Source: Tepidibacter hydrothermalis
Lineage (GTDB): Bacteria; Bacillota; Clostridia; Peptostreptococcales; Peptostreptococcaceae
Reading direction: 5' to 3'
Assembly (NCBI RefSeq): GCF_029542625.1
Contig: NZ_CP120733.1
Span: 2,046,001 to 2,110,000, forward strand
DNA length: 64,000 bases
This document shows, piece after piece, positions 9,118-38,238 of this stretch (position 1 is the first letter of the stretch; every line of letters begins with the position of its first letter). Both the position numbers and the translations under genes were made by a program. The notes under the pieces are model-generated. The model was not told where the DNA came from and did not search any database. It saw only the letters and a program-made list of their open reading frames with translations.

Positions 9118-12100
9118 CTAAACAAAATAATTATCTAAAGAAACATACTCTATTTCTTCATCCTTTTTCTTTATATTAATAGCTTTTATAAATAAATTAG
9201 CTGTATCTATAGATGTAAATATAGGTACTTTTCTTTCTGTTGCTTTTTTTCTAAGCTTAAAGCCTTCACTTTCAAGACTGTTTCCGTTTGTAGGAGTATT
9301 TATAACTATGTTTATATGTCCTTTTGATATAAGATCATTTAATTTATCTAAATCTACTTGTTCACATGAGATACTATTATTATTAAAAAACTCGCTAGTT
9401 CCCTTTGAGGCATATAGTTTAAATCCAAGCTTATAGTATTTTTTTATAACTTCAAATGCTTCTTTTTTATTAACATCACTCAATGATACATATATTCCTC
9501 CATTAGTTGGAATATCTATATTTACTGCTCTAAATCCTTTATATACAGCTTTGTCTAAATTCTTATCTACCCCTAATACCTCTCCTGTTGATTTCATTTC
9601 AGGACTTAAATATACATCAACATTTGCTAGTTTTTCACTAGAGAAAACAGGTATTTTTACTGCATATAATTGTTTATTTTCTAAAAGTCCAGTTCCATAT
9701 CCTAGTTCTTTCAACTTATTTCCAAGCATAGATTCAACTGCTAATTTTACCATAGGAACTTGTGTGACTTTACTAAGGATTGGTACTGTTCTTGAAGCTC
9801 TTGGATTTACTTCTATAACATATACTTCTTTTCCGTCGTATACATATTGAATATTAACAAGTCCTACTATTTTAAGTTCTTTAACTATTTTCTTAGTATA
9901 AGAGACTAGCTTATCTATAGTCTCTTTATCTAAACTTACAGTAGGATATACAGTTATGCTATCCCCTGAGTGTACCCCTGTTTTTTCAATATGCTCCATT
10001 ATTCCAGGTATTAATATATCTTCTCCATCAGATATTGCATCTACTTCAATTTCAGTTCCTTTTACATACTTATCTATTAATACTGTATGTTGACTACTTA
10101 AACTTACAGCTTCATTCATATAATTTTGAAGTGTCTTATCATCATAAACCACCTGCATAGCACGTCCTCCTATTACATATGAAGGTCTAACTATTACAGG
10201 ATATCCTAATTTATTTGCTGTATTAAAAGCATCTTCTAAATTATTTACTGTATATCCTTTAGGAGTTGGAATGCTTAGATCTTTTAATATATCACTTAGC
10301 TTACCTCTATCTTCTGCTAAGTCTATAGATTCAAATGAAGTTCCAAGTATATTTACTTTTTTCTCAGATAATTGTTTAGTTAAGTTTATCGATGTTTGTC
10401 CTCCAAACTGAACTATAACTCCATCTGGTTTCTCTTTATTTATAACATTCATTACATCATCTATATATAAAGGTTCAAAATACAGTTTATCTGATATATC
10501 AAAATCTGTACTTACAGTTTCAGGATTATTATTTATTATTATAGATTCATATCCTTTTTCTTTTATTGCCCAAACTCCATGAACGCAGCAGTAATCAAAT
10601 TCTATACCCTGACCTATTCTTATAGGCCCTGAACCTAACACTATTATCTTTTTGTTATTAGATACTTCATTTTCATCTTCTTTATCATAACAAGAATAAT
10701 AATATGGAGTCGTTGACTCAAATTCACCACTACAGGTATCCACCATTTTATATACTGGATATATATTGTTATCTTTTCTGATTTTCTTTAAAGCTTCAAA
10801 ATCAATTCCTGATATTTCACAAATTTCCTCATCTGTAAATCCCATGGCCTGAGCATCATAAATCACATTTCCATCCATACTTTCTTGTTTTAGTTTATTC
10901 TCTATTTCAACTATATTGTTAATTCCATATAAGAACCATTTATCTATTTGAGTTAATTCAAAAATACACTCTAAATCTATTCCTATTCTTAAGGCTTCAG
11001 CTATAGCAAATATTCTCTCATCATCACTCATTTTTATTTTTTCAATTATCTCATCTTTATTCATATTAGTAATATGAGGTATTCTAAGTCCTGTAAACTT
11101 TGCTTCAAGGCAACTTACTGCTTTTAGTAAAGCATTTTCAAAACTTCTACTTATAGCCATAACCTCTCCAGTTGCTTTCATTTGAGTTCCAAGTTTTTTA
11201 TCAGCTTTATTAAATTTATCAAACGGCCATTTAGGTATTTTAACTACTACATAATCAAGGCTTGGCTCAAAGAATGCACTAGAATTTTTAGTTGCATAAT
11301 TTTTAAGTTCATCAAGGCTATATCCTATTGCAATTTTAGCTGCTATTTTTGCTATTGGATAACCTGCTGCTTTTGATGCTAAAGCGCTTGATCTACTTAC
11401 TCTAGGGTTTACTTCTATTACTATATATTTAGAGCTCTTGGGGTCTAATGCAAACTGTACATTGCATCCACCTTCTATTTTTAAACTTCTTATTATATCT
11501 ATAGAAGCTGTTCTTAACATTTGATATTCTTTATCTCTTAGTGTTTGAGATGGAGCTATAACTATGCTGTCTCCTGTATGAACCCCTACTGGATCTATAT
11601 TTTCCATATTACATATAATGATACAGTTATCTTTTTTATCTCTTATTACTTCATACTCTATTTCCTTCCATCCAGCTACACTTTGTTCTAATAGTATTTG
11701 GTTTATAGGACTGCTTTTTAATCCATTTTCACAAGTATTAATCAGCTCTTCATAATTATTAGCAATCCCCCCACCAGTTCCACCTAGTGTATAGGCTGGT
11801 CTTATTATTACAGGATATCCGTATTCTTTAACAAATTCTTCACATTCTTTTATATTATTAGCTATTATACTCATAGGAACTGGCTGTTTTATATCTATCA
11901 TTAGTTTTTTGAATTCTTCTCTATCTTCTGCTTTTTTTATAGTATCACTATCTGTTCCTAAAAACTTTACATTATATTTATCAAGTATCCCTTTTTCCTG
12001 TAACTCCATTGCAAGGTTAAGAGCTGTTTGTCCTCCAAACCCTGCTAATATTCCATCTGGTTTTTCTTTTTGAATTATATTTTCTAAGCTTTCTATATTA

Positions 12101-20372: not shown

Positions 20373-22559
20373 TTATCTCAACAATTGAAGTACACCTTGA
20401 GGTTGTTGTTTAGCTTGAGCAAGCATAGATTGAGAGGCTTGTTGTAGTATATTATTCTTACTAAATGCAAGCATCTCTTTTGCCATATCTACATCTCTAA
20501 TTCTTGATTCTGCTGCTGTTAAATTCTCACTTGTGTTGTTAAGGTTATTTATAGTATGTTCTAATCTATTTTGATATGCTCCAAGTTTAGATCTAAATGT
20601 AGATACTTTACTTATGGCATTGCTTATTGTTTCTATAGCATTTGTTGCATTTTCATGACTTGAAACAGCTATTGCTGATTCTATGTTTTTACTGTCTGTT
20701 CCATTTGTTACCCCAGCTTTTTCAGTGAAAGACCCTGTAGATTTAGTTTCTTCTTCTTTGGTTTCACCTTCTTTTGCTTCTACTGCTGCTGCTCCATTTT
20801 CTAATTTGCCAGTAGCTGATACATCTGTAGATCCACCATCAAAATCAGCAGTTCCATCGAATCCTGTTACTTGTATTTTACTTGCATCTATTCCTGATGG
20901 AGCTGAAACCGCTGCTGCTATAGCCGCATTAATAGCTGCATCTTTATTATTACCTGCCTCACCTGCATCTGAATCTAGTGTTATCGTTAATTTATTTCCA
21001 GACCAAGCTGCACCAAGCGTACTTCCTGTAGCAAATGCTATTTCTATATCATTTCCTTTTTCTGCATTCTCTTTTCCACCAGAAATATTTACTTTTACAT
21101 CTGCATTTGACTTATCTTTTAATGTAAACTCTTTGCTCGCTGCTGTTGCTTCTTTAGCCTCAGTTCCTCCTGCTGCTTTAGTTCCTTCAGTTTCTCCTGT
21201 TGATCCTGCTTGAGATATTCCAAGTGCTGATGCACTCATATCTTGTAACTCTATTGTAATTGATTGACCTTTGTTAGCTCCTACTTGTAATACAATTTCT
21301 GATGAAGCTCCTTCTGCTGATTCATTTTCATCTGGCCATTTAATATCAAAGCCCTTAACAGATTTTCCTGTAGACTTACTTTCATCAACTACATCTTCTG
21401 CGTTTAGCTCTTTAGATCCAGCGTGGTCTTTACCAAGTATAGATCCAACATCAGACTCTTCACTTTTACCCCAGTCAAAGTTTACATCAGAACTTTTTAA
21501 ATAAGTTTTTATATCATCCTCTATATTATCTGTAAAATCTTTATAATCTGAATATGTTGTATTATCAGCAATAGCCTTTTCAAGAGCCTTATCTCCACTT
21601 AAAGAAGATTTTTTAATATCATCCATAAAGTTTTGTATAGTTTTACCTGTATCTAGCTTGTTACTTATAAACTTAAGCATAGCATAACCTGTTGCATAAT
21701 CAAGATTTGCCTTTTCAGCACTACTTGCATCCCATTTTCCATTAGTTGCTAATTTTTCTGCTCTTGCTGCTAATGCGTTAAGCTTAGTATCACCTATTCC
21801 ACTTTGATCATTTTTCCCTATAACCTGTCTAAGTCTTTCATCCGCTCCTGCTATTCCCTCAGCTGTACCTTCCATAAACCAAGTAGGGATTCCATCAGTT
21901 CCACCTATTTTATCACCAAATTCATCATACATTATTAAGTGAGTCATTTCGTGTGCTATTATACGGTCAGCATAAAGACCTCCACCAGTATCTCCATTTT
22001 CACCACTACTCTCACCAAAATCTTTTAAGTCTATTTGAAGCTTTAATTCTCCCTTTGCAGTACGAATAGCAGTAGCTGCTGCTCCACCTTTTTCATTAGA
22101 TACAAATTCTACTTCTATTTCATTCTTTCCTGAACCTTCTAGTCCATAAGATTCTTTTATATTATTTGCTGCTACTTCAAGCCATCCACTTTCTTTAAGG
22201 CCTCTTATAATGTTAGCCTTTGCAGTTGCTTCATCTGTAGCACCTGCTTCTCCGCTTCCAGAGCTTAAAAGTTTCTTTTTATTGAATTCTGTAGTATTTG
22301 ATATTCTATTGATTTCTGAGGTTAGTTGATTTATTTCATTTTGAATTTGATCTCTATCTTCACCTGTATACGTATCGTTACCTGCTTGTACTGCAAGTTC
22401 TCTCATTTTTTCAGATATGGCAAGTCCTGCTGCGTCATCTCCAGCTCTATTTATTCTAAGACCTGAAGATAATTTTTCCATACATTTTCCAGATGCTACT
22501 GTATTACCGCTCATCATTCTGTGAGCATTAATAGCATTCATATTATGATTAATTATCAT
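20373..22559 (-). CDS. Flagellinolysin: flagellin carrying a zinc metalloprotease domain, with a D1 deletion
   Basis: A 728-residue flagellin whose variable region holds a gluzincin-like protease. The start ([17 protein letters not shown]) is at 22559, after CAGGGAGG. Both flagellin ends are present, the C-terminus ending [20 protein letters not shown]. The protease has H203-E-M-T-H207 and, 23 residues on, E230 in WFMEG, a complete zinc/catalytic set. Known flagellinolysins make filaments proteolytic. Compared with the neighbouring flagellin, 38 residues of the N-terminal D1 helix are missing precisely between two copies of AATGAGAG (SEKMR joined to ELAVQ). This could impair polymerisation, or make it a minor or secreted subunit. 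An Ala/Gly/Glu/Thr-rich segment of about 250 residues follows the protease. Confidence 0.93.
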
Positions 22560-22634
22560 AATGTTACCTCCCTGCAATTTATATTTACAGACGTCCTTTT
22601 CTATCAAGTTTTGAAATTCTCGTTATTAAATTTA

Positions 22635-22682: not shown

Positions 22683-25196
22683 TTATCTTAATAACTGAAG
22701 TACACCTTGTGGTGCTTGTTTAGCTTGAGCAAGCATAGCTTGAGAAGCTTGTTGTAATATGTTATTTTTAGAGAATGCTAACATTTCTTTAGCCATGTCA
22801 ACGTCTCTAATTCTTGATTCTGCTGCTGTTAAGTTTTCAGAAGAAGTTCCTAAGTTATTAATTGTATGCTCAAGTCTATTTTGGAATGCTCCAAGTTTAG
22901 ATCTCTCAGTTGATACTTTGTTTATAGCATCGTTTAATACTTCTATGGCATTTGTAGCATTGTCATGAGTAGAAACATCAAGTGCCGATTCTACATTGTT
23001 ACTATCTGTTCCATTAGTTACTTCACTCTTTTCAGTGAAAGCTCCTTCACCATCTTCAGCTGGTGGAGCTGTAACAGATGTTGTAGTTGCGTTACCTGCT
23101 ACCCCTGCTGTCTTAGCTGTAACTGTTAATGTTGTAGCATCTCCTTTAGTTAAAGTAACATTTGTAGGAGCATCTGTACTTGCTACTATTGCATCTATTA
23201 CTTGCTCATTACCTGTAAATCCTTTTATATCTATTCCTACATTTGATCCTGAATATGCTCCATCTGTGCTATCAAATAGTTCATATGTTTTATCATCTAT
23301 TGTTATTTGTGTTCCTTTTGCAGCTAACTTATCTGCATCAAATGTAACTGATCCTGTTGCTTCTTTTGCTGGAGTTGTTGGATCTGTACCATCAGTTGAT
23401 GTAGTTGCAGTTGCCTCTGTTAATCCTGTTAATGTTTCAAAAGCATCTTTACTTGCTCCAGTACCTTTTGTTAATGTAACAGTTATTGAATCCGTACCAG
23501 GATTTTTAGCTTCAACAGTTAATTTATTAGTAGTACCATCTTTAGTTATTGTAGCTACATCTGATAATTTATTTCCATCAGTATCAACTGCATCCCCAAG
23601 TGCTGCTACTAAATCATCTGCACTAGCTGTTGCTCCTAAACCTTCGATAGCTGCATTATCAAGTGTGTATGTTTTAGATCCAACTGCTACCTCTATCTTT
23701 GCACCAACCATTTTACCACCTGATAAATCCGCAGCAGCTCCCATTACAGCTTGACCATCAGTCTTTGATTTTGTTCCTCCTACTGCATCTTCTCCTCCTG
23801 CTAAAGTTGCTCCTGCTGCTGTTGGTACACTTGATGTTGCACCTTCTGATTTTTTAGATATTCCAAGAGATTCTGCTCTCATATCTCCTATAGATATTGT
23901 AAATGCTTGACCTTTATTTGCTCCTATTTGTAATGTAGCCTCAAATCCTTTAGCATCACTTTCTTGTTCTGGTGGAGCTACAACTGATATATCTGTATTA
24001 TTACCTGCTACCCCTGATGTCTTAGCTGTAACTGTTAATGTTGTAGCATCTCCTTTAGTTAAAGTAACATTTGTAGGAGCATCTGTACTTGCTACTATTG
24101 CATCTATTACTTGCTCATTACCTGTAAATCCTTTTATATCTATTCCTACATTTGATCCTGAATATGCTCCATCTGTGCTATCAAATAGTTCATATGTCTT
24201 ATCATCTATTGTTATTTGTGTTCCTTTTGCAGCTAACTTATCTGCATCAAATGTAACTGATCCTGTTGCTTCTTTTGCTGGAGTTGTTGGATCTGTACCA
24301 TCAGTTGATGTAGTTGCAGTTGCCTCTGTTAATCCTGTTAATGTTTCAAAAGCATCTTTACTTGCTCCAGTACCTTTTGTTAATGTAACAGTTATTGAAT
24401 CCGTACCAGGATTTTTAGCTTCAACAGTTAATTTATTAGTAGTACCATCTTTAGTTATTGTAGCTACATCTGATAATTTATTTCCATCAGTATCAACTGC
24501 ATCCCCAAGTACTGCTACTAAATCATCTGCACTAGCTGTTGCTCCTAAACCTTCGATAGCTGCATTATCAAGTGTGTATGTTTTAGATCCAACTGCTACT
24601 TCTATCTTTGCACCAACCATTTTACCACCTGATAAATCCGCAGCAGCTCCCATTACAGCTTGACCATCAGTCTTTGATTTTGTTCCTCCTACTGCATCCT
24701 CTCCTCCTGTTAATTTTAATCCTGATGCAGTTGGTACACTTGTATTATTAGTTGCTGCTTTTGCTGCTGCAGCAGATTCTCCACCATCTAATACTTTTTG
24801 AGTATTGAACTCAGTAGTATTACCGATTCTATTTATTTCTGAAGTTAATTGATTAATCTCATTTTGAATTTGATCTCTATCTTCACCTGTATTCGTATCA
24901 TTACCTGCTTGTACTGCTAATTCTCTCATTCTTTGAAGAATAGATTGTGTTTCATTTAAAGCTCCTTCAGCAGTTTGAATCATAGAAATACCATCTTGAG
25001 AGTTTCTTTGAGCTTGATCTAATCCTCTTATTTGAGCTCTCATTTTTTCACTTATTGCAAGTCCTGCTGCATCGTCTCCGGCTCTGTTAATTCTAAGTCC
25101 TGAAGATAATTTCTCCATTGACTTTCCTGATGCTACAGTGTTTGAAGACATCATTCTGTGTGCGTTTAACGCATTCATATTGTGATTAATAATCAT
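22683..25196 (-). CDS. fliC: Flagellin with internally duplicated variable region
   Basis: An 837-residue flagellin, far longer than a minimal one (about 270-300). The N-terminal D0/D1 region ([20 protein letters not shown] to [12 protein letters not shown], about 145 residues) and C-terminal D1/D0 (from about 745, ending [20 protein letters not shown]) are complete and typical. The variable middle is two copies of a Thr/Ala/Asp-rich domain set with a 303-residue period; the copies are almost identical in DNA. The start is at 25196, where CAGGGAGG precedes ATG; an in-frame start 48 bases upstream lacks a site. The leader carries two GGGA-type motifs that may bind CsrA. A terminator follows. 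Confidence 0.96.
23090..24738 (-). repeat. Near-identical tandem repeat inside fliC
   Basis: Two blocks (about 23097-23835 and 24006-24738) repeat with a 909-base offset, i.e. 303 codons in frame. Across roughly 700 bases only a handful of substitutions are visible (for example CATATGTTTTATC versus CATATGTCTTATC, and AGTGCTGCT versus AGTACTGCT). Such identity implies recent duplication or ongoing gene conversion, and copy number could vary between strains. Confidence 0.93.
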
Positions 25197-25285
25197 AATG
25201 TAAAACCTCCCTGAATTTTTTTGGTACACGTCCCTTTGCACCATTAATATATATTTTCAAAAGTCATTTTGACTTTCAAAGCGAA

Positions 25286-26191: not shown

Positions 26192-26230
26192 ATAAAAATA
26201 AGCACAGACTACTATATAATCTGTGCTCTC
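26192..26230 (-). terminator. Terminator of the permease operon
   Basis: Read leftward: GAGCACAGATTATATAGTAG then TCTGTGCTTATTTTT. It ends the five-permease operon and isolates it from csrA. Confidence 0.85.
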
Positions 26231-26256: not shown

Positions 26257-28182
26257 TTATAAAATAGTTCTTGATAAATCTCGCATATATTTCGAACGAA
26301 TTATTAAAAAATAAATAAACTGAACTACAAAGAATGCAAATAACACTATAAACAAATGTAAAGTGAAAGATTTTGAAAATACTATTTCTAATGTTTTAAT
26401 AAAAAAATATGTATGAACACATGCAAGTATATATGGTATAAAAAATATTATACCGATCTGAATAGTCGATGCTTTTTTCATTTCTTCTAATGTTAATCCT
26501 ATTTTTGAAATATCTTGATATTTTCTCTTTTCTTGGTTTAATGTAATATACAATCTCAGATATAAGAAGCTTCCAGCGACACTTAAAAACATAACTCCAG
26601 TAAATAAGGATAGATACAGCAGTATCTTCCAAAACTCTATTTCAAATTCCAACCCCTGAGAGGTTGAATAAAAATAGAATGGATCTCCAGATTGTCTATT
26701 AAATTTCTCTGAGAGCTGATGACCAATATATCCTGTCTTTTCCCAATCTGAAACTTTATATATATAATAAGTATTTATTTCACCAGTATTTTTAATTGTT
26801 TCGAAGATATAATCATTTACTATTATTGTCTTAAAAAAAAGATGAGCTGGTAATATATTTCCATTAGTCATTCCAACATTATTTAAAATAATATTTCCAT
26901 TGTTTAGAGACAAAGTTTTACTGTTTAAAAATTCATCTCTTTTAACATCATAATCATATGAGTAAGGTACTAAATAAATTTCATTTTCTTTCAAACTAAC
27001 TTTTTTCATATTGAAAACAGGTGCAATCTCATTATACTCAGAAAGTTTTATAATATAAATTTCTTGTTTGTCATCTGTAATTTGTTTTGAAATTGTTGAT
27101 GTATATTTTTTAAACTCAAATCCATCTTTTTTAAGAGAGTCTTCTATCTCTTTAATATGTTTTTGTTCTTTATTATTTCCTGACAATGATAGATAAACAA
27201 ATGATATTGAACATTTTTTTATTATTTCATCTTTTACTATTGTGTTCATTACATAGAAAGAAGTTATTGAAATAAAAGTTATTGTTAGAATCATAGTAAC
27301 TAAGAAAAGAACTCGTGCATTATATCTTATACGATACTCTAAATCAGATATCCAAAGAATATTAATTTTTTTCATATAAAATCTTCTTTTATTTTTTAAT
27401 TTTTCAATTATAAATATACTGAACTGCGTGAAAAAAAAGAAGGTTCCAATAGCTATAATTACAAAAATAAATATAATTTGAACAGCAACAGTTTCACTTA
27501 ATATATATAAAAAATTATTTATGTATTCTAATTCTCTAAAAGCAGCCATAAAATATCCACTAAACATTAGTGAAATGGATACAATCGACAATGCTTTAGA
27601 ATATTTTATTTCTATATCTACTCTATTCCTTTCTTTAATTAAAGTATTTATATTTTTTATTCGAAGTAAAAATGGAGTAAGTAATGAAATTATAAAGAAC
27701 AAAAGAAAATACATTATAACCGTATACATAATTGCTTTTGTAGGAAAATAAAAGGGCAAGAAGCTCATACCTATAATTTTTTCTGATAATAACAATAATA
27801 ACTTTGTGAAAACCAGACCCACAATTATTCCTGTTATAATTGAAAGAAATCCTATAATAATATTTTCAAGAAATATTAAAAAATGAAATTGTCTTTTAGA
27901 CATTCCAATAATTGTTAGAACTCCAAATTCTTTTCTTCTTATTTTCAAAAATGTATTTACTGAATAAAATATAAACATAATAGAAAATATAAAAATTACC
28001 ATTTCCGCATAATCCATTGCCCAACTTAATGAATTCCTATTTGGATATAATATACTTGGATGAAAAATATATATAGCAAATGTAAAAAAAATCATAACTG
28101 AAATTGCACTACTTAAATAATAAGCAAAATAAGTTTTAAAGTTTCTTTTTACATTATTTAAAGCAAACTGCCAAAAATTCAT
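26257..28182 (-). CDS. BceB-like FtsX-domain ABC permease, copy 5
   Basis: A 641-residue permease of the BceB type: ten membrane helices in a 4-2-4-like layout with a large extracellular domain (about residues 320-520) between helices 7 and 8, flanked by FtsX domains. It begins MNFWQFALNNVKRNFKTYFA, a start shared by all five paralogues here. In known systems BceAB and the kinase form a sensing and detoxification complex against cell-wall peptide antibiotics. The start is at 28182; the GTG nine bases upstream lies inside the AGGAGGTG ribosome site. It is the last gene of the operon and has no ATPase of its own, so it must share the one at 35545. Confidence 0.92.
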   Translation of the reverse strand: MNFWQFALNNVKRNFKTYFAYYLSSAISVMIFFTFAIYIFHPSILYPNRNSLSWAMDYAEMVIFIFSIMFIFYSVNTFLKIRRKEFGVLTIIGMSKRQFHFLIFLENIIIGFLSIITGIIVGLVFTKLLLLLSEKIIGMSFLPFYFPTKAIMYTVIMYFLLFFIISLLTPFLLRIKNINTLIKERNRVDIEIKYSKALSIVSISLMFSGYFMAAFRELEYINNFLYILSETVAVQIIFIFVIIAIGTFFFFTQFSIFIIEKLKNKRRFYMKKINILWISDLEYRIRYNARVLFLVTMILTITFISITSFYVMNTIVKDEIIKKCSISFVYLSLSGNNKEQKHIKEIEDSLKKDGFEFKKYTSTISKQITDDKQEIYIIKLSEYNEIAPVFNMKKVSLKENEIYLVPYSYDYDVKRDEFLNSKTLSLNNGNIILNNVGMTNGNILPAHLFFKTIIVNDYIFETIKNTGEINTYYIYKVSDWEKTGYIGHQLSEKFNRQSGDPFYFYSTSQGLEFEIEFWKILLYLSLFTGVMFLSVAGSFLYLRLYITLNQEKRKYQDISKIGLTLEEMKKASTIQIGIIFFIPYILACVHTYFFIKTLEIVFSKSFTLHLFIVLFAFFVVQFIYFLIIRSKYMRDLSRTIL

Positions 28183-28229
28183 TTCTGTCACCTCCTAGTT
28201 GCTAAAACACTTCTATTAAAAATTTATTA

Positions 28230-30158
28230 TTATAAAATAGCTCTTGATAATTCTCGTATATGCCTGGATCGAATTATTAAAAAATAAATAAACTGAACTA
28301 CAAAGAAGGCAAATAGTATTGCACTCATCTGTAACGTAAACGATTTTAAAAAAATTATTTCTAATGTTTTTATAAAAAAGCATGTGTGAATACATGCACA
28401 TATATATGGCACAAAAATTATTATACCTATCTCAATAGTAGTTGCTAATTTCATTTCTTCAATTGTTATTCCAATCTTTGAAATAGCATAGTATTTTTTC
28501 TTTTGTTGATCTAATGATATATAAAATCTTAAGTATAACAAACTTCCAGCTGCACTTAAGAACATAACTCCAGTAAATAAGGATAGATACAGTAATATCT
28601 CCCACAGTTCTGTTTCAGTTTCCAATCCATATGAGGCTGCAAAAAAGTAAAATGGATCTCCTACTTGTTTATTAAATTTTCTATAAAGCTGCTGTGCGAT
28701 ACATCCAATTTTTTTCAATTTTGAAATTTTATACGAATAATGAGTATTTATTTCACTAGTATTTTGAATTGTTTTAAATATATAATCATTTACTACAATT
28801 GCTCTAAAATGCAAATGAATAGGAAAAATATTTTTTTCTGCTGTTTCAACATTATTTAGTATAATCCTTTCATTATTTAAATAGAAAATTTTACTGGTAA
28901 CAAATGAATTTGTTTTATTATTATTATAATAATATTTATCTGGTATTAAATATGCTTCATTTTCTTTTAATCTAACATTTTTCATACCTAAAACATCTGC
29001 AATCTCATTATACTCAGAAAGTTTCATAATATAAATTTCTTGTTTATCATCAATATCATGTCTCAATATCACTGATGTATTTTTTTTAAACTCAAATCCA
29101 TCTTTTTTAAGAAAGTCTTCTATTTCTTCAATATGTTGCTGTTCATTTTTATTGCCCGGCAATGATACATAACTAAAGGCTATTGAATACTCTTTTATTC
29201 TCTTATCTTTTACTATAGTTTCCATTGCATAAAAAGAAGTTATTGAACTAAATGTTACTGTTAAAAGCATAGTAACTAAAAAAAGTACTCTTGCATTGTA
29301 TCTTATACGATATGCTAAATCTGATATCCAAAAAATATTGATTTTTTTCATATAAAATCTTCTTTTCTTTTTTAATTTTTCAATTATAAATATGCTAAGC
29401 TGTGAGAAAAAAAAGAAAGTTCCAATAGTTATAATTACAAAAAGAAATAAAATTTGAACACCAATAGAATCAGTAATTGTATATAAAAAATCATTTACAG
29501 TATCTAATTTTCTAAAGGCAGCCATAAAATATCCAATCACTATGAGTAATATAGATAAAATAGACAATACTTTAGAAAATTTTATTTCTATATCCCCTAT
29601 AGTAGATTCTTTTAATAGACTATTCACTTTTCTCATTCTTAAAAAAAATGGAATTGTCAATGAACTTATAAAAAACAGTATAAAAAAAGTTATTACAGTT
29701 AACATAATTGGTTTTATCGAAAAATAACAACACAGTGTATCTGTACCTATTATTGTTTCTGATAATAATAAAAAGAACTTTGTAAATACCAATCCTATAA
29801 TTATTCCTGTTACAATTGAAAAAGCTCCAATAATCATATTTATAAAGAAAAATAAAATTTTAAGTTGAGTTTTTGATATACCTAGAATCATCAGAATTCC
29901 AATATCTTTCCTTCTTATTTTCAAAATTATATTTGCTGAATAAAATACAAACAGAATTAAAAAAACAAAAATCAGTATTTGTGTATAAACCATACCCCAG
30001 CTTAGTGGATCACTGTTTAGATATACTATACTTGGATGAAATACGTATGTAGCAAATATAAAAAAAAACATAACAGAAATTGCACTACTAAAATAATAAG
30101 TACAGTAAATCCTAAAATTTCTTTTTATATTATTTAAAGCAAACTGCAAAAAACTCAT
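28230..30158 (-). CDS. BceB-like FtsX-domain ABC permease, copy 4
   Basis: A 642-residue paralogue and the closest relative of copy 5, sharing long stretches such as KKINIFWISDLAYRIRYNAR before helix 7. All ten helices and a full extracellular domain are present. The extracellular domain (for example RHDIDDKQEIYIMKLSEYNE) differs in detail from its neighbours, as expected if each copy binds a different peptide or lipid target. The start is at 30158, following AGGAGGTG; the upstream GTG is part of that site. The gap to copy 5 is 47 bases without a terminator. Confidence 0.92.
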   Translation of the reverse strand: MSFLQFALNNIKRNFRIYCTYYFSSAISVMFFFIFATYVFHPSIVYLNSDPLSWGMVYTQILIFVFLILFVFYSANIILKIRRKDIGILMILGISKTQLKILFFFINMIIGAFSIVTGIIIGLVFTKFFLLLSETIIGTDTLCCYFSIKPIMLTVITFFILFFISSLTIPFFLRMRKVNSLLKESTIGDIEIKFSKVLSILSILLIVIGYFMAAFRKLDTVNDFLYTITDSIGVQILFLFVIITIGTFFFFSQLSIFIIEKLKKKRRFYMKKINIFWISDLAYRIRYNARVLFLVTMLLTVTFSSITSFYAMETIVKDKRIKEYSIAFSYVSLPGNKNEQQHIEEIEDFLKKDGFEFKKNTSVILRHDIDDKQEIYIMKLSEYNEIADVLGMKNVRLKENEAYLIPDKYYYNNNKTNSFVTSKIFYLNNERIILNNVETAEKNIFPIHLHFRAIVVNDYIFKTIQNTSEINTHYSYKISKLKKIGCIAQQLYRKFNKQVGDPFYFFAASYGLETETELWEILLYLSLFTGVMFLSAAGSLLYLRFYISLDQQKKKYYAISKIGITIEEMKLATTIEIGIIIFVPYICACIHTCFFIKTLEIIFLKSFTLQMSAILFAFFVVQFIYFLIIRSRHIRELSRAIL

Positions 30159-30213
30159 TTCTGTCACCTCCTCGTAGCTAAACTTTTCTATTTGAAAATT
30201 TATTAATATATTA

Positions 30214-31686
30214 TTATATGATGAACCTTGATAAATACTTAATGTATCTTGATCTAATTATCAAAAAATATATAAACTGAATGACAAAAAATATAAATAG
30301 TACTGTAAACAACTTTGAAGCTAACCCCTGAAATAATCCAAGCCTTGCAATAAAAAAGCATGTATGAATAGCTGCCATTATATAGGGTGTAAAAAATAAT
30401 ATAGCTATTTGAATAGTAGCTGCTTTCCCCATTTCTTCCGGTGTTAATCCAACTTTCGAAATCCTTATATATTTTTCCTTTTCTTGATTCAAAGTTGCAT
30501 AAAGTCCAAGGTATAAGAAACTTCCTGCTCCAATAAAAAGTATAACTGCAATAAATATCCATACATAAATCAATTCTCTCCATTCTTTTTTTTCATGTTC
30601 AAGTTTATATACAAAAAATGAATTTTTAGGTTCTTTATTAATTTTTTCATATAAAAGTTTTTTAAGTTTAAACCCACCATCATTAAAAGAATCTTCAATA
30701 GATTTAATATCTTGTTGCTCTTTATTGTTACCTGATAGAGATGCACAGACAAACGGAATTGGACAAGTCCTAACTATATCATCTTTTACTGTACTATTTA
30801 TTGCATATAAGGAGACTATTGATGTGAAAGTCACTGTTGAAAGAATAGTTACTAAAAAAAACATTATAGCATTATTTCTAATGTTATATTCCAAATCAGA
30901 TATCCATATAATATTAACTTTTTTCATATAAAAGCTTTTTCTCTTTTTTAGTATTTCAATTACAAAAATACTAAACTGAGAAAAAAACAAAAACGTGCCA
31001 ATAGTAATAATAATAACCATAAGTGAAATTTTAAATTTCTTAGAAAAAGCCATTAAGTATCCACTGAATAATAACAAAACAGATAAAATAGACATTATTT
31101 TAGAAAATTTTATTTGTTTATCTTTTTTATTTTCTTCCCTGATGAGAGCATTTATTTGTTTTGTTCGAAGTAAAAATGGAATACACAATGAAATTATAAA
31201 AAATAAAATACAAAAGTATACTACTGTATATATAATTGCTTTTATAGGCAAATAACAATGTAATGAGTTAGTAATTTTAATTTTTTGTGATGCTAATAGA
31301 AAAAACTTCGAAAAAATTCCTCCTAAAATCATTCCCGTTATCACAGCAAGAAAGCATATAGTTAAGTTTTGTAAAAATATTAAAATATCCAATTGTTTTT
31401 TTGACATTCCAAGAACCATTAAGACTCCAAATTCTTTACTTTTCACATTTACAAATGTATTTATAGAATACAATATAAATAAAAAAGAAAAAATAAAAAT
31501 TATTATTTCAGCTATACTCATTAAAGATACTAATGAATTCATATTTGCCTTTATTAAATTTGGGTGAAATCTATATATGAAAAAAGAAAAAACAATCATA
31601 CTAGCAATAACGCCACTAAAAAAATGAAAAAGGTAAATTTTAGAATTTCTTATTATCCTATTTAAAGCAAACTCCCAAAAACTCAT
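30214..31686 (-). CDS. BceB-like permease, copy 3, lacking most of its extracellular domain
   Basis: A 490-residue paralogue about 150 residues shorter than its neighbours. Helices 1-7 and 8-10 are intact, but the extracellular domain breaks off after DIKSIEDSFNDGGFKLKKLL and resumes with a short KNSFFVYKLEHEKKEWRELI linker into helix 8. The reading frame is kept across the deletion, so a membrane protein should still be made. Without the domain it is unlikely to recognise a peptide itself; it could be non-functional, a constitutive exporter or a dominant partner. A second deletion shortens the loop after helix 5-6. The start is at 31686, next to GAGGAGATG. Confidence 0.9.
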   Translation of the reverse strand: MSFWEFALNRIIRNSKIYLFHFFSGVIASMIVFSFFIYRFHPNLIKANMNSLVSLMSIAEIIIFIFSFLFILYSINTFVNVKSKEFGVLMVLGMSKKQLDILIFLQNLTICFLAVITGMILGGIFSKFFLLASQKIKITNSLHCYLPIKAIIYTVVYFCILFFIISLCIPFLLRTKQINALIREENKKDKQIKFSKIMSILSVLLLFSGYLMAFSKKFKISLMVIIITIGTFLFFSQFSIFVIEILKKRKSFYMKKVNIIWISDLEYNIRNNAIMFFLVTILSTVTFTSIVSLYAINSTVKDDIVRTCPIPFVCASLSGNNKEQQDIKSIEDSFNDGGFKLKKLLYEKINKEPKNSFFVYKLEHEKKEWRELIYVWIFIAVILFIGAGSFLYLGLYATLNQEKEKYIRISKVGLTPEEMGKAATIQIAILFFTPYIMAAIHTCFFIARLGLFQGLASKLFTVLFIFFVIQFIYFLIIRSRYIKYLSRFII

Positions 31687-31741
31687 TTCTGTCATCTCCT
31701 CATAGCTAAACTTTTCTATTTGAAAATTTATTAGTTTATTA

Positions 31742-33661
31742 TTATATAATGAACCTTGATAAATACTTAATATAACGTGATCGAATTATTAAGAAATACA
31801 TAAAATGAACTACAAAAAAGCTAAGTAGCACGCCAATCAATTTTAAATCTAATCCTTGAAATAACTCAAACATTTGAAGAAAAAAACACGTGTGTATACT
31901 TGCAAATATATATGGTATAAAAAATAGCATAGCTATTTGAATAGTAGCTACTTTTTTCATTTCATCTAATGTTATTCCAATTTTTGAAACCCCCTTATAT
32001 TTTTCCTTTTGTTGATTTAAATCTGTATAAAATCTACAATACAAAAAACTTCCAGCTGAAATAAAAAGTATAATTGCAATAAAAAAACAAACATAAAACC
32101 ATACTGTCCAATGTTCTTTTTCATATTTAAATATATGTCCAGCTCCAATAGCAATAAATGATCTGCTATATTTTTTATTGATTTTTTTATAAATATAATC
32201 AACAGTATCTCCAGTCTTTTCCCACTCTTCTATCTTGAATCCATAATAATTATTTTTATGCCCATTATTTTCAATAGTTTTAAATGTATTGTCATTTACT
32301 ACTATTATTGTAGAAAATAAAAAACGCATAAAAATATTTTTATCTGCTGCACCTATACTCCTTAAAATAACCTTTTCATTGTTTAAAGACCATGTTATGT
32401 CACTTAAAGGTTTATCTATATCATCAGCAGTTTTATAAGAATACTCTACTATATACGATTCATTTTTATTTAAGTAAATATTTTTCATATTTAAACCAGA
32501 AATAAGCTTATTATAGTCTGAAAGCTTTACAATATAAATTTCTTTTTTATCATCAGTTTGTTGTCGTAAAATAATTGCTGTATATTTTTTAAATTTAAAT
32601 CCTGCCTTATAAAAACACTCTTCAATTGTCTTAATATCCTGTTGTTCTCCCTCATTACCTGGTAACGATAAATAAACAAATTGCATTGGATAATTATTAA
32701 TTATATTATCATTTACTCCATCATTTATTAAATATAAAATAGATATAGATGTAAAAGTTAGTGTTGAAAGTATAGTAACTAAAAAAAGTGTTATGGAATT
32801 TCTTCTCATGCTATAACCTAAATCAGCTATCCATATCATATTAACTTTTTTCATATAAAAGCTTTTCTTCTTCTTTAATATTTCAATTGCAAATATGGTG
32901 AACTGAGAAAAAAATAAATATGTTCCTATAATAGCAGTGATTGTAAGGAATAAAATTTGGTTTCTTTTTTTATGAAAAATCACATTCAAAAAATCACTTA
33001 AAAACTCAACCCTATTTGAGATAGCTATTAAATATCCAATACACAACAATAAAATTGATAAAACAGACATGAATTTAGAAAACTTTATTTCTCTATCTCC
33101 TTCATTCAATTGTCTAAGCAGAAAAATTATTTTTTTTCTTCGAATCAAAACTGGAATACTCAATGAAATTAGTAAAGATAAAATTAAGAATGCTATAATT
33201 GTAAATACAATTGCTTTTAAAGGTAAATATAAATACAATGAATCGTTTATCATAATTTTTTCTGATGCTACGAGAAAAAAATTCGAAAAAATCACTCCTA
33301 AAATTATACCTATTATGATCGAACCCCACCCTATAATTGAAATTTCTAAAAAAATCAATCTATTAAATTGCTTTTTAGACATCCCAAGAATCATAAAAAT
33401 TGAAAATTCTTTACTTCTTGCTTTCACAAATACATATAGTGAATAAATAGCAAAGATAAAAGAAAAGATAAAAATGGCAAATTCAGCTATAACTGTTACA
33501 CAGAATAATAAATTTGTACCTGGCTGGGATAAATTGGGGTGAAATAGATATATGGCAAAGAAAAAGAAAACTATAGTAGAAATAACACAACTTATAAAAT
33601 AACCTAAATACCTTCTAAAATTTCTTTTCACATTATTTAGAGCCAAGTTATAAAATTTCAT
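31742..33661 (-). CDS. BceB-like FtsX-domain ABC permease, copy 2
   Basis: A 639-residue permease beginning MKFYNLALNNVKRNFRRYLG, with ten helices and a full extracellular domain (about 315-520). It starts only four bases after the stop of copy 1, with GGAGGTGAGG as ribosome site, so expression is coupled. Its extracellular domain has a distinctive stretch (NNYYGFKIEEWEKTGDTVDY) shared with copy 1 in modified form, suggesting copies 1 and 2 form one subgroup and 4 and 5 another. Confidence 0.92.
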   Translation of the reverse strand: MKFYNLALNNVKRNFRRYLGYFISCVISTIVFFFFAIYLFHPNLSQPGTNLLFCVTVIAEFAIFIFSFIFAIYSLYVFVKARSKEFSIFMILGMSKKQFNRLIFLEISIIGWGSIIIGIILGVIFSNFFLVASEKIMINDSLYLYLPLKAIVFTIIAFLILSLLISLSIPVLIRRKKIIFLLRQLNEGDREIKFSKFMSVLSILLLCIGYLIAISNRVEFLSDFLNVIFHKKRNQILFLTITAIIGTYLFFSQFTIFAIEILKKKKSFYMKKVNMIWIADLGYSMRRNSITLFLVTILSTLTFTSISILYLINDGVNDNIINNYPMQFVYLSLPGNEGEQQDIKTIEECFYKAGFKFKKYTAIILRQQTDDKKEIYIVKLSDYNKLISGLNMKNIYLNKNESYIVEYSYKTADDIDKPLSDITWSLNNEKVILRSIGAADKNIFMRFLFSTIIVVNDNTFKTIENNGHKNNYYGFKIEEWEKTGDTVDYIYKKINKKYSRSFIAIGAGHIFKYEKEHWTVWFYVCFFIAIILFISAGSFLYCRFYTDLNQQKEKYKGVSKIGITLDEMKKVATIQIAMLFFIPYIFASIHTCFFLQMFELFQGLDLKLIGVLLSFFVVHFMYFLIIRSRYIKYLSRFII

Positions 33662-33665
33662 TTCC

Positions 33666-35573
33666 TCACCTCCAATCAGTGAAAATATATCGTGATAAAT
33701 GTTTAATATATTGCAAGCGTATTATTAAAAAGTATATAAACTGAATAACAAAGAAAATAAATAGTACTGTAAGCACTTTTGAAGATGCCCCTTTGCATAA
33801 TCCAATTATTTCAATAAAAAAATATGTATGAACACTTGCAATTATATATGATGTAAAAAATAGTATAGCTATTTGAATAGTAGATGCTTTTTTTATTTCT
33901 TCTATTGTTACTCCAATTTTTGAAATATTTCTATATTGTTCTTTTTTTTGATTTAAAATCACATAAATTCTAAAATATAAGAAACTTGCTGCTGCAATGA
34001 AAAATATAGTCCCTATAAAGAAACATATATAAAACCATAATCTCAAAGCTTCTTTTTCATTTTCAAATATAGATGCAGCTCCTATAAAAACAAATGGATT
34101 ATCATTTGGAAAAACGAATAAATTATTATCTGGCGTATACAATTTTTCATAAATATAATCACCAATACCCGCTGTCTTTTCCCAATCTTGAACTTGAAAT
34201 CCATAATAAGTATTTTTGTTGCCAATATGCTCAATAGTGTTAAATGTATTATCCTTTACTACTATTAATCTATTAGATAAAAAACACTCAAAAATATTTT
34301 TATCTGCTATGCCTATTCTTGTTAAAATAATATTTCTATTGTTTAAAAAAAAGCTTTCACTTCTTGAAAGCTTATCTATATTTCCCTCAGATTTATATGG
34401 CAATTGTAATATATAAGCCTCATTTTCTTTTAATCTAATATTTTTCATATTTAAAGCAGTGGCGATATGATTATACTCTGAAAGCTTTATAATATAATTT
34501 CCTTCTTTGTCATGGATTTGCTGATGTAAAATAACTGCTGTATATTTTTTAAACTTAAATCCATCATTATTGAGATAATCTTCAATAATTTTAATATGTT
34601 GCCGTTCTTTATTGTTTCCTGGTAATGATAAATAAGCAAACTGCATTGGATAATCACTAACTACATCATCTTTTATTGTAAATTTTGCTGCATATAAAGT
34701 ACCTATTGATGTAAAAGTTACTGTTAAAAGAATACCTACTAAAAAAATCACTCTCACATTAATTTTTCTACTATATGATAAGTTAGATATCCACATCATA
34801 TTTACTTTATTCATATAAAAGTTTCTTCTCTTTTTTAACATTTCAATTACAATAATACTGGACTGAGAAAAAAATAAGAACGATCCAATAGTAGTAATAC
34901 CCATAATAAATAAAATTTGATTACTAAATTTATTAAAAAGCTTATATACAAAACCTAACATTAAAATCGATAAAATAAATATCGTTTTACAGAACTTCAT
35001 TTCTTCATATATTGTACTAGAATCTCTAAGTAAGTCATTTATTTCCTTTGTACGAAGTAATAATGGGATACATAAGGAAATTATTAAAAATAAAATACAA
35101 AAAGATATAATTGTAAATAAAATTGCTTTTATAGGAAAATAAAAATCTAATGGCCCTATAGCTATTATTTTTTCTGATATTATTAGAAAAAACTTCAAAA
35201 AAACCAATCCTATTATTATTCCTGTTGTAAGTGAAAGGAAACCTATAATTATATTTTCTAGAACTATTAGTCTATTAAATTGTTTTTTAGACATTCCAAG
35301 AATTATTAAAACTCCAAATTCCTTATATCTTACTTTCACAAATATACTTGCGGAATACAGTATAAAAAGAAAAGAAGATATAAAAATAACTATTTCACCT
35401 GTAATGATTGTCATATATACGCCCTCACTACCTAACTCCCATAACTTAGGATGAAAGATATTTATAGCAAAAAGAAAAAAAAACATAATAGAAACAGCGC
35501 TGCTTAAAAAATGAGCAAGATATGCTTTAAAATTTCTTGTTATATTATTTAATGCGAACTGCCGAAAATTCAT
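33666..35573 (-). CDS. BceB-like FtsX-domain ABC permease, copy 1 (ATPase-proximal)
   Basis: A 635-residue permease starting MNFRQFALNNITRNFKAYLA at 35573, where GGAGGAG sits seven bases upstream; an upstream in-frame start lies deep in the ATPase gene. It overlaps the ATPase gene by 29 bases, the arrangement expected of a matched BceA-BceB pair, so this is the most likely ancestral partner. Ten helices and a full extracellular domain are present. Its extracellular domain has a short extra insert (YTPDNNLFVFPNDNPFVF) relative to copy 2. Confidence 0.92.
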   Translation of the reverse strand: MNFRQFALNNITRNFKAYLAHFLSSAVSIMFFFLFAINIFHPKLWELGSEGVYMTIITGEIVIFISSFLFILYSASIFVKVRYKEFGVLIILGMSKKQFNRLIVLENIIIGFLSLTTGIIIGLVFLKFFLIISEKIIAIGPLDFYFPIKAILFTIISFCILFLIISLCIPLLLRTKEINDLLRDSSTIYEEMKFCKTIFILSILMLGFVYKLFNKFSNQILFIMGITTIGSFLFFSQSSIIVIEMLKKRRNFYMNKVNMMWISNLSYSRKINVRVIFLVGILLTVTFTSIGTLYAAKFTIKDDVVSDYPMQFAYLSLPGNNKERQHIKIIEDYLNNDGFKFKKYTAVILHQQIHDKEGNYIIKLSEYNHIATALNMKNIRLKENEAYILQLPYKSEGNIDKLSRSESFFLNNRNIILTRIGIADKNIFECFLSNRLIVVKDNTFNTIEHIGNKNTYYGFQVQDWEKTAGIGDYIYEKLYTPDNNLFVFPNDNPFVFIGAASIFENEKEALRLWFYICFFIGTIFFIAAASFLYFRIYVILNQKKEQYRNISKIGVTIEEIKKASTIQIAILFFTSYIIASVHTYFFIEIIGLCKGASSKVLTVLFIFFVIQFIYFLIIRLQYIKHLSRYIFTDWR

Positions 35574-36318
35574 TATTTTCTCCTCCGAGCAGTGACAATA
35601 CATCTATAATATTCTGATAAAATTTTTCTCTACTGTCTCCTCTATGAATCTCATTAAATAGTTCACCATCTTTAATAAAAATAACTCTATTACAATAACT
35701 TGCGGCCAAAGGGTCATGAGTTACCATCATGATCGTTGCTCCATTATTCCTATTGATATTTTCAAACAATTCCATAACATTCTTTGAAGATCTGGAATCT
35801 AAATTTCCTGTTGGCTCATCCGAAAGCAGAATGGATGGTGAGTGAATAATAGCACGAGCAATAGCTGCATGTTGAGCTTGTCCCCCTGAAACTTCAAATA
35901 TTCTTTTGTTTAATATTTCTTTAATCCCGAGTTGTTGTGCTACTTCATTTAATCTTTCGTCCATATAAGATACTTTATGTCCATCTAAAGTTAATGGAAG
36001 TACTATATTTTCCCCAATAGTTAAGGTATCCATTAAGTTAAAGTCTTGAAATACAAATCCAAGTTCTCTTCGTCTAAATAGTGCTAGTTTAGAATATTTA
36101 AGAGTATGTGGATTTTTATTATTTAATAATATTTCACCTGATGTTGGTGAATCAATAGTAGAAATTACATTTAATAAGGTAGTTTTTCCACTTCCTGATG
36201 GGCCCATTATCCCTACAAAATCTCCCTTTTCAACTGTTAGATTAATATCATTCAACGCACGAAAAGGAACTTTACCTTCATATATTTTATAAACATTCTT
36301 TACCTTTAAAATTTCCAT
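35545..36318 (-). CDS. BceA-like ABC transporter ATPase
   Basis: A 257-residue ATPase of the MacB/LolD/BceA group. Walker A is GPSGSGKT (39-46), the Q-loop is FVFQDFNLMDTLT, the signature is VSGGQAQHAAIARA, and Walker B is ILLSDEPTGNLDS followed by the switch histidine in MMVTHDPLAA. In the signature the usual Arg of GGQxQR is His, a conservative oddity in a position that contacts nucleotide indirectly. It is the only ATPase in the locus and must energise up to five permeases. It starts 63 bases after the kinase gene. Confidence 0.95.
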   Translation of the reverse strand: MEILKVKNVYKIYEGKVPFRALNDINLTVEKGDFVGIMGPSGSGKTTLLNVISTIDSPTSGEILLNNKNPHTLKYSKLALFRRRELGFVFQDFNLMDTLTIGENIVLPLTLDGHKVSYMDERLNEVAQQLGIKEILNKRIFEVSGGQAQHAAIARAIIHSPSILLSDEPTGNLDSRSSKNVMELFENINRNNGATIMMVTHDPLAASYCNRVIFIKDGELFNEIHRGDSREKFYQNIIDVLSLLGGENNEFSAVRIK

Positions 36319-36381
36319 ATAACAATATCCTTTCTGTCATTCATCATTAGTCTTTTATAAACATTACATCAGTGTAATACT

Positions 36382-37359
36382 TTAAAATATTATTCTTACT
36401 ATCGTACCTACGTCCACCTCGGATTCTAGCTCAACTCTATGTTGAAGTCTTTTGCATGACTGCCTTACAAGGTATAATCCCATTCCAGTAGATTCACCAA
36501 ATCTTCTTCCATTTTCACCAGTATAAAATGCCTCATATACTCTTTTTATATCTTTTTTAGGAATACCTACTCCCTGATCTTTGACTTCTAATATAATATT
36601 TTTATTTTGTTTATAAGCTTGAACTGTAATTTTTTTGTTTCTTTCACCAGAATATTTAATCGCATTTGTTAGCAACTGTTGAAGTATAAATATCAACCAT
36701 TTGCTATCTGACTGTATTAAAACTTTATCCTTAATTAATATTTGAGGAAAAATGCCCTTACTAATAAACAATCCTTTTAATTCATTAATAGCTTTTGTAA
36801 CTACAGTTCTCAAGTCTATTGTTTCAACATAAAAATCATTTTGAAAAGAATCAAGTCTTGCCATATATAGTGCCATATTTAAGCCTCTGTTAAGACTATC
36901 AATTTCTTGTTGTATATTTGCCATATACGGTTCATATTCATTTTCCTGAGCAACAAGCTGTATTGCAGATAATGGTGTTTTCATATGATGAACCCACTGA
37001 TTAATAAATACCAAGTGCTCTTTTTGCTTTCTATCGTAATTATGTATTTGTTCTTGAAATAAACTAAACTGATTTTTCAGTAGTTTATTCAACGCTTCAT
37101 CAAGACACGAATTTCCTATGTCCGCTATAGGTGTCTCTAAACTAGAAGACAATTCACTTAATTTCTTATAAAATCTTCTATTTGTAAAATATCTATATAC
37201 TGAATAACAAATTAAAAGAAATAAACTTACAAACAGAAAGTAAAGCAGATTTTCACTTTTCTCAAATCCACCGATAAAGTAATACATTATAACTAAGAAA
37301 AACATATTTGAAAAGTATAAAACAAACAAAGCTAGCTGTTCTTTAAAAAAAAGCTTCAT
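36382..37359 (-). CDS. BceS-like intramembrane-sensing histidine kinase
   Basis: A 325-residue kinase with two N-terminal membrane helices (about 11-30 and 38-55) joined by only a few outside residues, so it cannot sense a ligand by itself. This is the hallmark of BceS-type kinases that read the flux of their transporter. The phosphoacceptor is H124 in QWVHHMKTPLSAI. N-, G1- and G2-box regions are seen in LLTNAIKYS, DQGVGIPKKD and GESTGMGLYL. The start overlaps the response-regulator stop (TAATG). Confidence 0.94.
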   Translation of the reverse strand: MKLFFKEQLALFVLYFSNMFFLVIMYYFIGGFEKSENLLYFLFVSLFLLICYSVYRYFTNRRFYKKLSELSSSLETPIADIGNSCLDEALNKLLKNQFSLFQEQIHNYDRKQKEHLVFINQWVHHMKTPLSAIQLVAQENEYEPYMANIQQEIDSLNRGLNMALYMARLDSFQNDFYVETIDLRTVVTKAINELKGLFISKGIFPQILIKDKVLIQSDSKWLIFILQQLLTNAIKYSGERNKKITVQAYKQNKNIILEVKDQGVGIPKKDIKRVYEAFYTGENGRRFGESTGMGLYLVRQSCKRLQHRVELESEVDVGTIVRIIF

Positions 37360-38060
37360 TATTCATTCCTCCAAGTTATATTTAATCTATATCCTATTCC
37401 TCTTACTGGTTCTATTGCATTTTCAATACTCAGTTCTATCAATCTTTTTCTTAATCGAGTAACATTTACATTTAAAGTGTTTTCTTCTACAAAATTTATA
37501 TCATCCCATAATTTATTTAAAAGTATTTCACGACTAACAACATTTGGGTACTTTTTCATAAATACTTCTGCTAAAATCGCTTCTTTCTTCGTAAGTATGA
37601 TTTTATTTTTATTAAATGTTATTTCTAGTCTTTCGGGATATAAAATTAATCCATTTAGCTCAATTTTTCTTTCTTGTATTGGTGTTACATATATACCATA
37701 ACAGCGCCTTATATGACTTTTTATTTTTGCAATTACTATTTCATAAAAAAATGGTTTTGTTATATAATCATCTGCTCCATTTTCTAACGCCATAATTTGA
37801 TCCATCTTTCCCTCACGGGCAGTAATAAATATAATGGGACATGTGGATATTTTTCTAATTTCTTTACACCAAACATATCCATCATATTTAGGAAGATTAA
37901 TATCAATTAACACAAGGTGAGGCTGAAACTCATGATAATTCAGCATAACATTTTCAAAATTATCTACTATCATACTTTCATAACCGTATTTTTCTATATG
38001 TGATGATAGTAGCTCAGCAATAGATATATCATCTTCTATAATCATAATTCTGTATTTCAT
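37359..38060 (-). CDS. BceR-like OmpR-family response regulator
   Basis: A 233-residue regulator. The receiver domain (1-120) has the acidic pocket IIEDD, phosphoacceptor D53 in LIDINLP, and K in ITKPF. The C-terminal winged helix ends NTLNVNVTRLRKRL and GIGYRLN, typical of OmpR/PhoB types. It heads the operon and would activate the downstream ATPase and permeases when the kinase detects transporter activity. No clear inverted-repeat Bce box was found by eye in the upstream region. Confidence 0.95.
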   Translation of the reverse strand: MKYRIMIIEDDISIAELLSSHIEKYGYESMIVDNFENVMLNYHEFQPHLVLIDINLPKYDGYVWCKEIRKISTCPIIFITAREGKMDQIMALENGADDYITKPFFYEIVIAKIKSHIRRCYGIYVTPIQERKIELNGLILYPERLEITFNKNKIILTKKEAILAEVFMKKYPNVVSREILLNKLWDDINFVEENTLNVNVTRLRKRLIELSIENAIEPVRGIGYRLNITWRNE

Positions 38061-38203: not shown

Positions 38204-38238
38204 AATAAAAAACCACGACATAATATTCGTGGTTTTGA
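38204..38238 (-). terminator. Terminator of the chemoreceptor gene
   Basis: Read leftward: AAAACCACGAATATTATG then TCGTGGTTTTTT. It lies about 30 bases past the chemoreceptor stop. Confidence 0.88.

Follow-up and report, generated by a model that had tools for sequence, protein, structure and literature searches.

Five tandem permeases, one of them nearly headless, beside a single ATPase gene in a Psd/Bce-type locus of Tepidibacter hydrothermalis

The window considered here is a stretch of 64,000 nucleotides (NZ_CP120733.1, C1:2046001-2110000) from the 4.16 Mb genome of Tepidibacter hydrothermalis, and coordinates are positions within it unless another contig or locus is named. Its minus strand carries, from 38060 to 26257, a Psd/Bce-type operon composed of an OmpR-type response regulator, an intramembrane-sensing histidine kinase, one ATPase and five permeases, all with open frames. 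This gene content and order, supported by Pfam, agree with what a previous sequence-only reading had described (five BceB-like permeases and no further ATPase in the operon), so that the pattern of one permease per ATPase does not hold here. The regulator (233 amino acids, 37359..38060) contains Response_reg (1.1e-22) and Trans_reg_C (6.8e-18) domains. The kinase (325 amino acids, 36382..37359, HisKA/HATPase_c in Pfam) has two hydrophobic segments, residues 7-31 and 36-59, that leave a very short loop between them; with two helices, a loop of at most 12 residues and an OmpR regulator, it is of the Bce type. The ATPase (257 amino acids, 35545..36318, ABC_tran 2.9e-35), the sole one in the operon, matches PsdA (9ugg, 4e-97) first and BceA (8s5g, 9.7e-72) next among solved structures, which places it in the BceA type.

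The ATPase gene is followed by permease 1 (635 amino acids, 33666..35573, FtsX 2.7e-12), permease 2 (639 amino acids, 31742..33661, FtsX 7.6e-11), permease 3 (490 amino acids, 30214..31686, FtsX 2.1e-13), permease 4 (642 amino acids, 28230..30158, FtsX 1.2e-06) and permease 5 (641 amino acids, 26257..28182, FtsX 1.9e-13), the FtsX domain being found by Pfam in all five. Permeases 1, 3, 4 and 5 are read from internal ATG codons. In this way, permease 1 shares 29 bases with the ATPase gene, and the starts of permeases 3-5 were shifted nine bases inward from the first listed ATG/GTG, because a Shine-Dalgarno sequence (GAGGAG or AGGAG) abuts that codon and a homologous M-[SN]-F start follows. Successive permeases are separated by 4, 55, 55 and 47 bases, and a purine-rich ribosome-binding site, judged by eye, precedes each of them. 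The three longer spacers are the leaders of permease 3 (31687..31741), permease 4 (30159..30213) and permease 5 (28183..28229); the first two are near-identical, the third is related to both, and no RNA structure was found in any of the three (z -1.1, 0.5 and 1.5). Directly after permease 5 lies a strong terminator hairpin (26200..26228, -17 kcal/mol, z -6.4, 0 of 200 shuffles as good). It had been described as the single terminator of the operon; its place at the end is clear, but that it is the only one is uncertain, given weaker terminator-like hairpins within permease 1 (34373-34351, equalled by 4 of 200 shuffles) and within permease 4 (28397-28380, equalled by 13 of 200). Another terminator-like hairpin, behind the upstream chemotaxis gene (38210..38235, -11 kcal/mol, z -3.8, 2 of 200), separates this gene from the operon, which therefore probably has its own transcription start. 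Consensus matches for internal promoters were not above those in shuffled sequences (113 vs 119). The G+C content is 23-24% in permeases 2-5 and 28-33% in their direct neighbours, and other parts of the window also have 24%.

A profile of ten permeases matched PsdB (9ugg, 2.7e-122) and then BceB (7tcg, 2.7e-64) among solved structures, and the AlphaFold models of permease 5 (mean predicted local distance difference test score 82) and permease 3 (mean 80) both had BceB 8s5g as their best PDB fold match (2.0e-21 and 1.1e-12, respectively). Ten long membrane helices were counted in these two models; for permeases 1, 2 and 4 the assignment comes from hydropathy and alignment. A large extracellular domain or head (more than 170 residues in PMC3023708, between helices 7 and 8) is present and complete in four of the five, with 210, 202, 203 and 202 residues in permeases 1, 2, 4 and 5, and these full heads are 42-62% identical. 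Permease 3 has a head of 69 residues, having lost 133-141 residues in frame, two thirds of the domain, with a deletion junction near 30657, a point absent from the sequence-only reading. Its model keeps the ten long helices and has no strand in the remaining head; on this model, permease 3 is a natural "delta-loop" permease, in which the helices are kept and most of the head is gone, with a fold that is still BceB-like. In a search of an anti-phage defence library, 19 models matched the ATPase and a single one the kinase; these matches were taken as general ATPase and kinase likeness, and there was no match for the permeases submitted (1, 3 and 5) or for the regulator.

The five permeases are mutually 45-66% identical, too little for the array to be an assembly artefact of identical repeats, and they form one clade (100/100) in both trees, of 33 and 32 permeases. 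In the second tree, which took in the nearest later-found relatives, the copies are monophyletic (100/100) with 27 other permeases for comparison. Six distant permeases (L127, L129, L133, L134, L047 and L049) entered the first tree and not the second, and those of L137 and L142 entered neither. This single clade indicates that the five copies arose by duplication of one permease gene, apparently locally and in tandem. The subgroups 1-2 and 4-5, suspected before, both hold in this phylogeny (copies 4-5 at 100/100), copy 3 joining the former (1-2-3 at 95/96 and 96/96). Across 60 columns, 93% of positions agree between the leaders of permeases 3 and 4, and permeases 2 and 3 agree at 96% in their final 42 columns, although the intervening genes are not so similar; the leader pattern occurs twice in the window, with no third occurrence at up to 3 mismatches. 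The junctions on either side of permease 3 (31690-31800 and 30160-30270) are near-identical direct repeats, which could allow loss or gain of permease 3 through recombination. Gene conversion of the heads was considered and rejected: nucleotide identity along the array has no homogenised head, the near-identical stretches lying at junctions 2/3 and 3/4, and third-position divergence in the heads is not consistently lower. None of three congeners had a permease match at the cut-off used, among the matches listed, so nothing shows that the array is old in the genus.

All five permease tips are under purifying selection. With a codon model allowing AT-rich composition, omega (the ratio of nonsynonymous to synonymous rates) between copies ranges from 0.11 to 0.29, and all 10 pairs reject omega = 1 (likelihood-ratio test statistic, LRT, 55-121). 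Free-ratio tip values are 0.36, 0.24, 0.21, 0.23 and 0.18 for copies 1-5, and permease 3, when given its own omega, has 0.22, with omega = 1 again rejected (LRT 26.4). It follows that each copy was maintained as a protein over much of its past. Positive selection, which raw codon-position divergence (positions 1, 2 and 3 nearly equal) had raised as a candidate, was dropped in view of the omegas from the AT-aware model.

The array differs from its relatives in how change is distributed between head and membrane part. The ratio of head identity to membrane identity is 0.86-1.00 in the full array copies (6 pairs) and 0.44-0.76 in single-permease relatives (44 pairs with membrane identity below 0.8). 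The corresponding ratio of omegas, computed with a synonymous rate common to both regions, lies between 0.95 and 1.45 for all 10 array pairs and between 1.79 and 4.01 for all 17 single-permease pairs, of which eight are saturated (distance >15), so that their ratio alone is usable; pairs within a tree are not independent. The nine unsaturated controls have membrane omegas of 0.06-0.12 and head omegas of 0.12-0.40, compared with 0.11-0.29 and 0.14-0.36 in the array, which means that the membrane part is looser than usual and the head is not. The membrane part, rather than the head, is therefore what is unusual about the array, and no branch stands out in membrane omega beyond a weak excess on permease 1 (LRT 4.7). 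Neighbouring permease pairs in three other genomes behave like the single-permease controls, with omega ratios of 2.52 (G158), 2.64 (G816) and 2.67 (G054, where each permease has its own ATPase). Across the ten pairs from outside the window in this comparison, the ratio is at least 1.99 in seven and 1.63 in one orthologue pair, and two very distant pairs, which hit the distance bound with a ratio of 1.00, were counted for neither side. The controls agree with a published comparison of close BceB relatives, in which the head loop shows the lowest conservation (identity 0.38 vs 0.52-0.88; PMC3023708).

Conservation of 80% or more among single permeases is found at 51 membrane positions; permease 5 retains 47 of these and permeases 1-4 retain 42-44; the permease of a second module in the same genome retains 48. 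Among single permeases (20 of 29 are covered by these figures), 16 retain at least 47 of 51-54 and four retain 36-44. Permease 3 carries the changes R85K and E109Q, and permease 4 E88D and E109I, in a stretch where R, E and E are conserved in BceB and PsdB and which, from the FtsX family, we take to be the ATPase-coupling region. The sequence-only reading had named, as what would overturn it, activity of copy 1 only; the sequence gives no sign of this, copy 5, the most distant from the ATPase, being the one that retains most conserved membrane sites.

The ATPase and the kinase deviate at single residues, each known from this one genome. The ATPase has R150H at the last residue of the SGGQxQR signature of ATP-binding cassette (ABC) proteins (codon 35871-35869) and A166S before the Walker B DE (codon 35823-35821), and the kinase has H125 after the phospho-histidine; R, A and Q, respectively, occupy these positions in 27 of 27 relatives. 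Across 134 distinct ABC reading frames of the examined loci, the signature position is R in 130, K in 3 and H in 1, the operon ATPase, and serine at the position matching 166 occurs in 2. Walker A, the Walker B acid and the H loop are retained, judged by eye, and the gene is under strong constraint on amino-acid changes. The second module, from C1:734816, has the order permease-ATPase-regulator-kinase; its ATPase (G000:C1:736715) is 75% identical to that of the operon and has the signature arginine intact, and its permease is 45% identical.

Permease relatives were searched in 71 genomes of the family, 393 of the order, 391 of the class, 398 of the phylum and 16 of the f11 family (overlapping sets), with strict cut-offs, the best three candidates per genome being scored in several sets and match coordinates being judged by eye. 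Among the matches listed, no other pair of permeases on the same strand lies too close together for an intervening ATPase gene. Relatives of the ATPase were present in 60 loci; a strong match to this kind of permease occurs in 39 of them, exactly one in each case (39/39), and a weak match in one more (L085). Two of 39 flanking regions (L109-L147) have more full permeases than ATPases: that of G158, with the order permease-ATPase-permease, and that of G816, with permease, membrane protein, ATPase and permease. The membrane protein of the latter (542 amino acids, L142 7865-9493) has no Pfam match and may be a strongly derived permease. At L122 14962-15345, two genes downstream of a permease, a fragment of 127 amino acids resembles the C-terminal end of that permease and appears, from its sequence, to be the remnant of another permease duplication. 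A small gene with a transglycosylase SLT domain directly precedes the permease in two separate Bce-type loci, L041 of the same genome (5205-5747, 6.2e-15) and L137 of G158 (11261-11761, 4.7e-12), which hints at a wall-hydrolase partner. Among 72,556 plasmid records, 14 have a relative of permease 5 (30-42% identity), with an ATPase annotated under the match in 11. Most Bce-like clusters are described as having one copy of each gene and some as having several permease and/or ATPase genes (PMC3023708). No report of a five-permease array of this kind was found among the matches listed in the titles and abstract starts of the open-licence literature.

On balance, and with modest confidence, we favour a Psd/Bce-type antimicrobial-peptide sensing and target-protection module in which the permease has been duplicated to five, the heads being alike, copy 5 the most canonical and copy 3 a modulator at most. 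Each full-length permease (1, 2, 4 and 5) could form a complex of two ATPases and one permease with the common ATPase. The solved complex of Bacillus subtilis has a BceA:B:S stoichiometry of 2:1:2 (PMC10314905), which, with one ATPase gene, implies sharing, unless translation differs or the ATPase of the second module helps; the earlier claim that the permeases compete for one ATPase is accordingly a fair one, but sharing need not be exclusive, given that the second ATPase is 75% identical. Since the heads of the four full copies are nearly as similar to each other as the membrane parts are, they would recognise identical or closely related peptide-lipid targets. The transporter that is fully active and coupled to the kinase would most likely be permease 5. 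In B. subtilis, BceB without its loop is reported to leave BceA at the membrane, while induction and resistance are lost (PMC3023708). Like this bceB delta-loop mutant, permease 3 may sit in the membrane and recruit the ATPase while neither sensing nor protecting, and would be at most a buffer or modulator of the common ATPase and kinase. The looser membrane parts may reflect relaxed coupling to the ATPase, the kinase or the lipid in the extra copies.

Several points weigh against this proposal, which was drawn from sequence and models. Heads that are 42-62% identical may bind different peptides, and in published swaps of homologous loops bacitracin resistance was not restored and induction was partly restored in just one (PMC3023708). 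In the five-copy tree the head has a slightly yet significantly higher omega than the membrane part (0.295 vs 0.235, LRT 8.5), and the site model M8 is preferred over M7 (p 0.0035), with about 1.5% of sites at a large omega (>1); M2a over M1a gives an LRT of 6.1, and the M8 sites are probable alignment noise near gapped columns. Omega is 1.17 on the short inner branch that leads to copies 2-3. The free-ratio fit is no better than one ratio (LRT 7.0, 6 degrees of freedom), so that differences between branches are not significant, nor are they in a further test (LRT 13.0, 12 degrees of freedom). Permease 3 could have lost its head so recently that omega does not yet show decay, and the site losses in copies 1-4 are no proof of lost coupling, because four of 20 single permeases retain as few as 36-44 sites.

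The array may instead have been amplified for more permease and now be decaying, with function left only in the copy closest to the canonical form (5, perhaps 1), a possibility that we hold to be rather unlikely. The raised membrane omegas, the conserved sites lost in copies 1-4, the head deletion in copy 3 and the lack of a match in the three congeners would all fit such dosage and drift, but five long genes have remained without frameshift or stop, their tip omegas are 0.18-0.36 and their ribosome-binding sites are kept. Another reading, in our view unlikely, is a diversification of the four full heads that would let a single module sense or remove several peptides, its permeases competing for one ATPase. 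Head identity leaves room for it, the substrate spectrum is reported to be set by the heads (PMC12484072), and heads do diverge fast in the two-permease loci of G158 and G816 (identity ratios 0.50 and 0.58); the ratio of 0.86-1.00 in the array, the head omega slightly above that of the membrane part and the little head left in copy 3 argue against it. The sequence-only reading had proposed this widening of the range: different ligands are still allowed by the heads, but the idea is weakened, since the array heads behave unlike those of single-permease relatives and of the two other two-permease loci, and "more heads, more antibiotics" is less supported than like heads. Energy for the permeases could also come, in part or in full, from a different ATPase, for instance the one in the second module, if that of the operon is weak, but we consider this improbable. 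In its favour, R150H is the only histidine at the signature position among the 134 reading frames and the second ATPase is 75% identical, with an intact arginine; against it, the operon ATPase keeps its catalytic motifs and strong constraint, and its gene is overlapped by permease 1. As a speculation to which we give little credence, the pump might have been rewired to a graded sensor and sponge, in which four like heads hold peptide at the surface, the headless sibling titrates ATPase and kinase as an inhibitor built into the module, R150H and Q125H slow cycling, and the ratio of headed to headless permeases, not the flux through one transporter, sets the response.

The operon resembles PsdRSAB and BceRSAB of B. 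subtilis in its regulator, two-helix kinase, ATPase and ten-helix FtsX permease with the head between helices 7 and 8, and differs from them in its five permeases, one nearly headless, and in an ATPase signature and a kinase residue that deviate from 27 of 27 relatives. As in the cluster of Bacillus weihenstephanensis KBAB4 (PMC3023708), extra permease genes have been duplicated within one module, although three permeases are described there and five are found here, one of them nearly headless. Permeases also outnumber ATPases in the loci of G158 and G816, where, however, they flank the ATPase on both sides and their heads diverge fast. Permease 3 shares its ten helices and its lack of a large head with headless permeases of Corynebacterium (PMC8003753) and with the bceB delta-loop mutant (PMC3023708); by these accounts the former is the permease of its transporter and the latter laboratory-made, whereas permease 3 has four headed siblings. 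Transporters of the CprABC/LanFEG type, described as an ATPase with two different permeases without a large extracellular domain (PMC8003753), are a different class, since the array permeases match PsdB/BceB and four of five have the large domain.

Elsewhere in the window, two flagellin genes lie on the minus strand. The product of the first (20373-22607) has a HEMTH motif (HExxH) in mid-protein and resembles the proteolytic flagellins described in PMC5595980; no Pfam peptidase match was found in it, and Flagellin_N is matched in two stretches, as if the N-terminal domain were partly missing compared with the neighbouring flagellin. This neighbour (22683-25244, 853 amino acids) has a middle region with two near-identical copies of a long segment, judged by eye.

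In Bce modules, sensing and protection are coupled via one permease, and the functions of head and membrane part are hard to separate. The array offers a natural separation of the two, with five versions beside a single ATPase and a single kinase, and lends itself to testing competition for a common ATPase and the regulation of siblings by a headless permease. It also means that extra permeases in a Bce-type locus need not mean extra substrates.

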